Of a stretch of DNA of 56,448 bases, positions 22,556 through 25,183 are shown one piece after another. The notes beneath the pieces were generated by a model that saw only the letters and a program-made list of their open reading frames with translations, did no database searches and was not told where the DNA came from. A program made the translations under genes and the position numbers. Positions within the stretch are counted from its first letter, which is position 1. The number at the start of each line of letters is the position of its first letter. The stretch lies in NCBI GenBank assembly GCA_003599395.1, contig QZJX01000046.1, positions 1 to 56,448 of the forward strand, written 5' to 3'. This DNA comes from Ignavibacteriales bacterium (GTDB lineage Bacteria > Bacteroidota > Ignavibacteria > Ignavibacteriales > Melioribacteraceae).

Positions 22556-22966
22556 ATGAATAAGATTACAATTCACCTTAAAAATGGCAGGTACTTATCT
22601 TTTTTCCTTTGGCTGGTTGCTATTCACTCATGCTTAGTTGGTATTGGATTAATTGTTTATCCCAGCTCACTGATGGAATTTTTTGGATACGGGGTCTGCT
22701 CTGAAAGATTCTTCCCGTCGCAAGGTGGAGTATTTCATATTGCAATGGCAGTCGGATATGCAATGTCTGCCTACAATTTGAAGCGTTATGAATGCCTCAT
22801 AATTTTCTCGGTAGTTGTAAAATTTATGGCAACAGTTTTCTTATTCACCTATTTCATATTCGTCAGTTCTATTTGGTTAATTCTGCTCTCGGGCATTTCT
22901 GATTTCTTAATGGGATTAATAATTTTAATCCTCTATCGCTTCGCAAAAGGAGCGGGTAAGTTATGA
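22556..22966 (+). CDS. Four-helix membrane protein under sigma-54 control
   Basis: A 136-residue inner-membrane protein with four predicted helices (about 14-36, 52-74, 80-102, 105-128) and conserved-looking loops (Y-P-S-S-L-M-E-F-F-G-Y, F-F-P-S-Q-G-G-V-F-H). The family is not recognised; the pattern resembles small DUF-type four-helix membrane proteins. ATG 22556 has GGAG at 22545-22548 and lies just downstream of the sigma-54 promoter, so it is preferred to an upstream in-frame ATG at 22481. It overlaps the next gene by 4 bases (ATGA), so it is translationally coupled to the epimerase-sensor fusion. Confidence 0.78.
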   Translation: MNKITIHLKNGRYLSFFLWLVAIHSCLVGIGLIVYPSSLMEFFGYGVCSERFFPSQGGVFHIAMAVGYAMSAYNLKRYECLIIFSVVVKFMATVFLFTYFIFVSSIWLILLSGISDFLMGLIILILYRFAKGAGKL

Positions 22967-24612
22967 GTTTGTATAACAATCATAGAACTGTTTTAATAAT
23001 CGGTGCTACGGGATTTGTCGGTAAAAATTTTCTCGAGAGCATTAAAGAGGAATATAAAGTATTTGCACTTGCAAGACGCTCACGCACAGAATCACATATT
23101 CCGTATCACAAAAACGTGCAATGGCTTCAGTGCGATATTGCAAATAAAAATAGATTAAATGAGGTCAAAAATTTTCTAATCGAAAACGGCGGGGTTGATT
23201 TTGTCTTTCACTTAGCTGCTTATTATGATTTTACTTATAAAGATAATCCCGAATACGAAAGAACAAATATTGAGGGAACGAAAAACGTACTAGAGTTAGC
23301 AAAGGGATTAAACGTAAAAAGGTTTGTTTTTATCAGCTCGCTCGCTGCTTGTGAATTCCCTAAAGATGGTGAAGTTGTAACGGAGTATACCCCGCCTAAT
23401 GCAGGCTTCCACTATGCGCGAAGTAAAAGAATCGGTGAAGAGTTAACTCAAGAATATTCAAATTACTTTCCTTGCACAATTATTAGATTGGCGGCTATCT
23501 TTAGTGATTGGTGCGAATATGCGCCGTTATATAAATTTTTGACAACATGGCTTTCGAAAAAAATAGAGTCAAGAATACTCGCCGGCAAGGGTGAATCCGC
23601 AGTCTCATATTTGCATGTAAATGATCTTATCAATCTGTTCAGAATAATAATTAAAGAAGCGGATAATCTTTCGCAATTTGAAATTTATAATGCAAGCCCC
23701 AACGGATCAATTTCGCACAAAGAGTTATATACAATTGCAACAACTTATTATTTCGGAAAAGCAGCAAAACCGATACACTTACCAAAAATTCTAATTTACC
23801 CCGCCTTAATTATAAGAAAGATTCCTTTTTTGCTTCACTTATCAAGCGAAGAACATTTTGAAAGATTTTGGATGATAAAATATGTCGATAAAAAATTAAA
23901 AGTAGATTCGACACACACACAAATTGCATTAAGATGGCAGCCGACTCCTCGAAATTTAATCACACGCCGACTTCTTTTTTTATTGGAAAAAATGAAAAGT
24001 CATCCCGACGAATGGCGTCTTAAAAATGAAGCGGCAATGAAAAAAATTGCTCGCAGAACAAACTTTATCATTTACGATCACTTAACCAATTTGAAAGAAA
24101 CAATAGTTGCCAAAATAGAAGAACAAATTCTTTCGCCTAACGCCGATGAAGTTTTCAAACGTTACCACAAAATGGATCTAAATGATTTTCAATGTTACAT
24201 AAGTACAGTTTATCATCTGCTTATGGCAACAGTAAGAAGCGGCGACAGAAGTTTGATGATTCAATATATAGATGACATTGCAACACGCAGATTTGCCGAG
24301 GGGTTTCTTCCGAAAGAACTTTGTCAAACTATTCAACTATACAGAGAAATAATCATTTCAGAATTAAGCAAGATAAAAGAGCTGGCAAAAATTAAACAAG
24401 AAGTATATGACTACATCGGTTTGACTCTTCAAATGGCAATTGACGAAATTGAAGATCATTACGATAACTTAATAAAGAAAGTTCCGGCTGATAAAATTGC
24501 ACAGTCGGATTTACTACCGGACTGCAAAGAATTACAAAGAATGATAAGACAACTTAGCGCATTCTATCAAATGTCTCCTGAAGAAGGAATTAATTATGAA
24601 GAAATGCGATAA
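22963..24612 (+). CDS. NAD-dependent epimerase/dehydratase fused to an RsbRD-like sensor domain
   Basis: A 549-residue protein in two parts. Residues about 8-330 are an extended short-chain dehydrogenase: G-A-T-G-F-V-G near 14-20 binds NAD(P), F-I-S-S-L-A-A near 124-130 supplies the catalytic Ser region, and Y-A-R-S-K near 149-153 is the Y-x-x-x-K active site. Residues about 360-530 are all-helical, with A-T-V-R-S-G-D-R-S-L near 423-432 and F-A-E-G-F-L-P-K-E-L near 444-453. This resembles the RsbRD N-terminal (non-heme globin-like) sensor domain of stressosome proteins. I know of no standard enzyme with this fusion. It is co-transcribed with the four-helix membrane protein from the sigma-54 promoter. 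The sugar or lipid substrate is unknown. The RsbRD call is from pattern memory and is less sure than the SDR call. Confidence 0.75.
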   Translation: MSLYNNHRTVLIIGATGFVGKNFLESIKEEYKVFALARRSRTESHIPYHKNVQWLQCDIANKNRLNEVKNFLIENGGVDFVFHLAAYYDFTYKDNPEYERTNIEGTKNVLELAKGLNVKRFVFISSLAACEFPKDGEVVTEYTPPNAGFHYARSKRIGEELTQEYSNYFPCTIIRLAAIFSDWCEYAPLYKFLTTWLSKKIESRILAGKGESAVSYLHVNDLINLFRIIIKEADNLSQFEIYNASPNGSISHKELYTIATTYYFGKAAKPIHLPKILIYPALIIRKIPFLLHLSSEEHFERFWMIKYVDKKLKVDSTHTQIALRWQPTPRNLITRRLLFLLEKMKSHPDEWRLKNEAAMKKIARRTNFIIYDHLTNLKETIVAKIEEQILSPNADEVFKRYHKMDLNDFQCYISTVYHLLMATVRSGDRSLMIQYIDDIATRRFAEGFLPKELCQTIQLYREIIISELSKIKELAKIKQEVYDYIGLTLQMAIDEIEDHYDNLIKKVPADKIAQSDLLPDCKELQRMIRQLSAFYQMSPEEGINYEEMR

Positions 24613-24652
24613 AACCTATATCAGATGAGAGATCGAGGATTGTAAAACAAAA

Positions 24653-24768
24653 TGCGGAGATTGACCTAATGGCAACGGCACAAATATACTCAGGGGAAAT
24701 GAGAAAAAAGAGTCGATGAAATCCATCGGGCAATGTGCATGGTGGCTGCTGACTGCCATGCCTCCGCA
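24653..24768 (+). ncRNA. Possible structured RNA or riboswitch-like leader
   Basis: A 116-base stretch in the 199-base gap between the epimerase fusion and the NifX-like gene. TGCGGAG (24653-24659) closes with CTCCGCA (24762-24768). Inside are three hairpins: CTCA/TGAG at 24689-24703, CGATG/CATCG at 24714-24728 and GCATGG/CCATGC at 24737-24761. A competing pair exists between ATGGCA (24669-24674) and TGCCAT (24754-24759). A closed multibranch fold with an alternative pairing is typical of regulatory RNAs. It matches no riboswitch consensus I can recall with confidence, so the family is left open. Confidence 0.4.
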
Positions 24769-24811
24769 ATAATTAAATAAAATAATTACTCAAAATATAA
24801 ATAGGCTTTTA

Positions 24812-25183
24812 ATGAATCAAAGAATTGCAGTAGCGATTGAAGAACTTCCAGGTAATATTTATGTGGTTGCGGAAAATTTTAGCCGATGCTCAAAATTTGT
24901 TGTGTGTGAAATTAACTCTAAAAAGATAGTAGTTCAAAAAGAAACATACTTCAATCCTCTTAACGGTCATCAGAAAAGTCAATCGCAACTACCGGGGTAT
25001 ATTAATCAGTTTGATGTTGATTATATCATTGCGGGAGTAATGGATAAAAAAACATTGTCAAATTTTCATCAGTTCAGAATAAACGTAATAACAGCTCCGA
25101 AACTTCAATTTAAAGATGCATTAGAACAATTTTTATTTGGTAAATTAAACCGTTATGTAGAAAAAATTGAAGAGGACAATTAG
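24812..25183 (+). CDS. NifX/NifB-type FeMo-cofactor-binding domain protein
   Basis: A 123-residue protein with the nitrogenase-cofactor (NifX/MTH1175) fold. It opens R-I-A-V-A-I-E, has V-A-E-N-F-S-R-C-S-K-F-V-V-C-E-I near residues 18-33 (the FGR-x-x-x-F position) and Y-I-I-A-G-V-M-D near 70-77 (the V-I-x-G-x-x-G position). Stand-alone members bind iron-sulfur or metal clusters or act as metal chaperones; no nitrogenase gene is near. It follows the RNA-like element by 43 bases and may be regulated through it. It has no strong ribosome site. The exact function is unknown. Confidence 0.75.
   Translation: MNQRIAVAIEELPGNIYVVAENFSRCSKFVVCEINSKKIVVQKETYFNPLNGHQKSQSQLPGYINQFDVDYIIAGVMDKKTLSNFHQFRINVITAPKLQFKDALEQFLFGKLNRYVEKIEEDN

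Follow-up and report, generated by a model that had tools for sequence, protein, structure and literature searches.

A conserved fold in the remnant of a CGGC-domain gene upstream of a NifX-like gene in Ignavibacteriales: a candidate structured RNA

The window analysed here, 56,448 nt of contig QZJX01000046.1 from an Ignavibacteriales bacterium, carries between an epimerase-type gene and a NifX-like gene a 116 nt element that, on comparison with an intact homologue, proves to be the central part of a disrupted CGGC-domain gene (Table 1). The preliminary description had presented it as an unassigned candidate for a structured RNA ahead of the NifX-like gene, and this is supported, with both the letters and the fold kept in a second species of the genus (genome G002) beyond neutral expectation. 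The best explanation, which is put forward with moderate confidence, is that this fragment of the CGGC gene has been kept as a structured RNA that most probably works in cis, on the transcript of the NifX-like gene.

The element has a minimum free energy (MFE) of -39.5 kcal/mol (z -3.18), which none of 200 dinucleotide shuffles equalled in stability, and a GC content of 50%, against 34.9% across the window; the preliminary description had called it better folded and more GC-rich than the other gaps. The MFE shape is a three-way junction of P1, P2, and P3. The 7 bp closing stem reported earlier is present as P1, where 5 of the 7 pairs have a pairing probability near 1 in both the window and G002. 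Internal hairpins are present too, in the apical hairpin and P3, but the three separate ones of the preliminary description are not, the long arm P2 taking part in the junction instead. The first P2 pair is A-U in the window and G002 and G-C in the gene of a third genome of the genus, G001, both sides having changed. The GGGGAAATGAG of the apical hairpin and its GGGGAAA loop are identical across all three homologues. The same fold is found in the G002 copy (-44.0 kcal/mol, z -3.81) and the homologous coding stretch of G001 already folds strongly, at -51 kcal/mol. The minus strand of the element folds more weakly (z -2.09).

Table 1. Features of the CGGC-gene remnant and its neighbours, in window coordinates.
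Feature	Position	Strand	Basis or remark
Epimerase-type gene, upstream	22963..24612	+	Orthologue in G001:C295 precedes block with intact CGGC gene
Approximate full CGGC remnant	24628..24811	+	Outer limits uncertain
Structured core, three-way junction; remnant of central part of CGGC-domain (PF08821) gene	24653..24768	+	DNA match, MFE, z
P1, 5' strand TGCGGAG	24653..24659	+	Codons Cys-Gly-Gly in intact gene
P2, long imperfect arm	24660..24734	+	
TGA replacing second Cys codon of CGGC, common to window and G002	24662..24664	+	Alignment to G001 gene
Three frame-breaking indels, common to window and G002	24677..24746	+	Versus intact G001 gene
Apical hairpin CUCA-GGGGAAA-UGAG, within P2	24689..24703	+	
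P3 hairpin GCATGGTGG.../...GCCATGC	24737..24761	+	GMVVGYPPC coding in intact gene
P1, 3' strand CTCCGCA	24762..24768	+	CCCCGCG in intact G001 gene
NifX-like gene (PF02579)	24812..25183	+	43 nt 3' of core

A competing ATGGCA/TGCCAT pairing, proposed from the window alone, is there in the letters, but as a switch it is not credible because it is energetically poor: forcing it carries a penalty of 6.5 kcal/mol in the window and of 16.6 kcal/mol in G002, which has lost one of the six pairs. The statement that the element belongs to no class that could be named agrees with the Rfam scan, in which there was no match at the gathering score in the whole window and none even at E≤1 in positions 24550–24900. 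No plus-strand terminator was found, and the one sigma-70-like match inside the element is not above chance. A candidate minus-strand terminator, CGATGGATTTCATCG-TTTTTT, was rejected, as its last pair and T run are broken in the letters of G002, as judged by reading.

In a DNA search of 97 related genomes convincing matches are confined to the genus, where the element is matched in all four genomes of the genus set. Two of the four, namely the window's own genome and a second genome of its species in one contig, match the query at 100% identity, and the element is therefore not an assembly artefact. The G002 copy occupies the corresponding position ahead of the NifX-like gene and is 88% identical over 133 nt, with 104 of 116 positions identical in the core. 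The evidence base is three distinct sequences, one of them coding. The element is single copy in its own genome, which rules out a repeat or mobile element, and the exact pattern was not found in viral contigs. A covariance search, suggested as a check in the preliminary description, gave strong matches across 79 family genomes only in the genus. Outside it there is one clear match, in G112 (E 8.9e-6), which is an intact CGGC gene, and there are four weak ones (E 0.06–0.5), of which three proved on checking to be intact CGGC genes and the fourth, L067, has no CGGC motif. Absence from upstream of relatives' NifX-like genes, named beforehand as counting against the candidate, is indeed seen in the other genera of the family and at the NifX cluster of G001 itself, and this speaks against a general class of NifX leader.

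The key comparison is with contig C295 of G001, where the DNA match (75%) sits inside an intact 155-codon gene. The encoded 155 aa protein, which includes ...YTSCGGCPGGNIEYAPGEMSKNKVDVIHLATGMVVGYPPCPR..., matches the Pfam model of the CGGC domain, PF08821, at E 9.7e-31, and the core shows DNA homology to the segment of this family member that runs CGGC...GMVVGYPPC. In the window and G002 the frame 0 translation at the motif is CGD*P, there is no in-frame start codon before the TGA, and the indels relative to the intact gene are +1 near 24677, -2 near 24703/24704, and -1 near 24745/24746; the G002 copy has a further stop. The TGA, the indels, and the missing start codon, set against the intact G001 gene, mean that the stretch is a gene remnant and not a member of the family. 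An open reading frame with a CGGC motif and a start codon, as expected of an intact CGGC gene, is lacking in the window copy, which has instead the DNA homology, disabling changes, and related neighbourhood of a CGGC pseudogene. Beyond the core, the flanks of the remnant are rich in A and T and have been conserved less well. There is no intact CGGC gene in G000 (81% complete) or in G002 (99% complete).

Two other frames overlap the remnant. On the minus strand a frame covering window positions 24590–24769 is open in both species, with mostly nonsynonymous changes. At 24656–24671, GGAG is followed 9 nt on by ATG in both the window and G002, and the possible leader peptide of 16 or 13 codons is not conserved in sequence.

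The genes around intact CGGC copies are informative as to how the gap before the NifX-like gene arose. In C295 the order is epimerase, FAD oxidoreductase, Mrp-type ATPase, TrmO-like gene, CGGC, and cupin, at the contig edge; in G112 it is oxidoreductase, Mrp, CGGC, radical SAM, and NifX-like; and in G033 a small gene, two NifX-like genes, and two MinD genes come after CGGC (the oxidoreductase, TrmO, Mrp, cupin, radical SAM, and MinD assignments come from reading of translations and not from a family search). CGGC is thus close to NifX in G033, G022, and G112, which have related gene orders. In the window's species and G002 the CGGC core alone remains between the epimerase and the NifX-like gene, and comparison with the orders in G001, G112, and G033 shows the gap to be the leftover of such a block after deletions. 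The NifX-like protein of 24812–25183 is without the MinD-type partners of other clusters and without the HGG stretch of other NifX-like proteins in the family. Its gene is an orphan survivor of the cluster, yet with a dN/dS of 0.20 it is one that is retained for some purpose.

The genus is a mosaic. For apbC, G001 pairs closely with G002 (95% aa), the window's species lying far off, and for the C295 epimerase it is G001 that is nearest to the window (91% aa); this disagreement between the two trees indicates recombination in the genus. C295 (L046) is at odds with the rest of G001, its epimerase being nearest to the window's species and the apbC of G001 nearest to G002; either recombination or contamination in a mixed assembly may explain this (G001 is in 590 contigs, with 5% contamination).

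Between the window and G002, 12 of the 116 core sites differ and indels are absent, which gives a distance of 0.11. The NifX-like gene has a dS of 0.52 and a dN of 0.11, and its dN/dS of 0.20 shows it to be functional; the core distance is far below this dS (Fisher p 1.1e-5). The core is also more conserved than the remnant flanks (104/116 versus 49/68 identical, p 0.004), and among 52 alignable non-coding bins of an 83 kb contig it is in the top three, with one higher and one equal. Fourfold sites of the flanking genes are 34–41% identical between the window and G002, which is saturated. Between G000 and G002 these sites are 62% identical in NifX and 41% in the epimerase; the NifX block is less diverged than its surroundings, which is consistent with exchange between lineages. 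The 12 changes in the core fall 4/4/4 by codon position and are mainly nonsynonymous in all six frames, the even spread indicating that no protein is being kept. When polarised by the G001 gene, nine are assigned to the branch of the window and one to that of G002. That the remnant is not decaying neutrally is, on these comparisons, supported statistically.

Two other non-coding stretches stood out between G097 and G002. An intergenic stretch at L079:17095-17250 (G097:C1 about 3599471-3599626) is 96–97% identical, better conserved than the element at 24653–24768, and has a strong inverted repeat, ACTCAGCG...CGCTGAGT, without an Rfam match or a tRNA; it is a candidate RNA or regulatory element in its own right. 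An AT-rich stretch at L079:6254-6350 (G097:C1 about 3588630) is about 91% identical.

The fold appears to have been kept along with the letters. Random substitutions, with the observed indels, placed on the G001 stretch gave -30.1 +/- 3.9, against -44.0 in the actual G002 copy (2/1000), and random substitutions on the G002 stretch gave -31.9, against -39.5 in the actual window (38/1000). These simulations used the observed substitution types, either unstratified or held within thirds or sixths of the element, and in the stratified forms the frequencies were 1/1000 and 7/1000 from G001 to G002 and 8/1000 and 11/1000 from G002 to the window. Retention of the fold on both branches beyond random substitution is supported statistically, at 0.1–4% of simulations in a small sample. 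Three of the window/G002 differences swap a G-U for a Watson-Crick pair on the plus strand. Of 38 pairs, three have changed on both sides, and with three sequences the covariation term, +0.46, is not favourable.

The folding of the G001 coding stretch goes beyond what its codon usage would give, since it is more stable than codon-usage-matched sequences (z -3.64, 1/300). In twelve CGGC genes of other genera the fold is no better than in codon-matched sequences, so that a fold common to all CGGC genes is ruled out. After allowing for 13 tests, the G001 folding gives a weak indication that the RNA was already present in the open reading frame.

It is possible, though not probable, that the element is a plain gene remnant, a neutral CGGC leftover with an inherited fold, whose identity reflects recent exchange of the tract between species. 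Its status as a remnant is clear, the intact G001 stretch folds strongly already, and G000 and G002 are closer at the element and NifX than at the epimerase, as exchange would give. Given recombination in the genus, a short and recently exchanged tract could raise identity, and two stretches in the 52 bins reach equal or higher identity. Against this, the element has diverged far less than the dS of NifX in the same block, and the less conserved flanks, the absence of indels, and the resistance of the fold to substitutions on both branches also speak against neutral decay. A recoded or otherwise translated CGGC protein (with selenocysteine at the TGA, or by frameshifting), or an antisense or leader peptide, is extremely unlikely. 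The TGA does replace a Cys codon, the GGAG and ATG (24669) could start a 16-codon peptide, and both species have the minus-strand frame open. However, there is no in-frame start before the TGA, the frame is broken by three indels and, in G002, a further stop, and in none of the six frames do changes concentrate at third positions. Selenocysteine, frameshifting, and antisense coding were accordingly rejected on the substitution pattern.

A metal- or cofactor-responsive leader for the NifX-like gene, as guessed in the preliminary description, did not hold up and is now considered highly unlikely, although the element is a compact junction only 43 nt upstream of NifX. It is of coding-sequence origin and has neither an Rfam match nor a credible alternative fold; neither a terminator nor Shine-Dalgarno (SD) sequestration with an alternative fold, as expected of the expression platform of a riboswitch or attenuator, is seen; and NifX-like genes elsewhere lack it. 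A small RNA processed from the transcript and acting in trans is also unlikely. The structure is discrete and closed, with sequence conservation in both loops and stems, but it has no terminator of its own or convincing promoter, and its position before NifX is kept in both species. ORF-internal small RNAs with excess wobble conservation are a precedent and the closest parallel: Escherichia coli FtsO, within ftsI, has 91% wobble conservation against 67% in the rest of ftsI (PMC7815308). The G001 homologue resembles FtsO, an RNA with a sequence constraint of its own inside coding sequence, in that it lies in an intact open reading frame and folds better than codon-matched sequences. The host gene of FtsO is however intact and the small RNA shown by experiment, whereas here the host frame is dead in two species and the RNA is predicted.

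The comparisons show that the CGGC gene was once part of an epimerase - oxidoreductase - Mrp - TrmO - CGGC - ... - NifX neighbourhood, the rest of the block being lost by deletions and the protein ended by the stop codon and indels. Under retention as a cis-acting structured RNA, the remaining core would then have been kept by selection as a folded, non-coding, plus-strand RNA. It would presumably be co-transcribed with the NifX-like gene, as an intercistronic or 5' leader segment setting the stability, processing, or translation of the NifX mRNA, perhaps through a protein reader of the conserved GGGGAAA loop. Such a reader is conceivable given that the loop is identical in the homologues and that each of the four genomes of the genus encodes CsrA. 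The element is like cis-regulatory leaders and intercistronic stabilisers in having a stable fold just before a gene in the same direction; it differs from them in having no terminator and no switching fold, and in being confined to one genus.

A more far-reaching proposal, made tentatively, is that the CGGC coding sequence of this genus carried an embedded functional RNA, which has outlived the loss of the protein in two species upstream of the NifX-like gene. Xist is a non-coding RNA that arose from a decayed protein gene, Lnx3, and the two cases are alike in that the protein gene was lost and function at the RNA level is proposed to persist in the remains. The element here differs in being bacterial, about 116 nt long, and a compact single domain, with a function that is only proposed. 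Among the papers searched there was no direct precedent for a structured RNA derived from a bacterial pseudogene. The case is also a warning to compare 'riboswitch-like' folds in intergenic DNA with coding relatives before calling them leaders. If the proposal is true, an RNA would here have lived on in a bacterium after its host open reading frame died, and bacterial non-coding RNAs would have a birth route in the folded portion of a protein gene that is dying; the intact gene, the synteny around it, and the remnant that was retained can all be seen within one genus.
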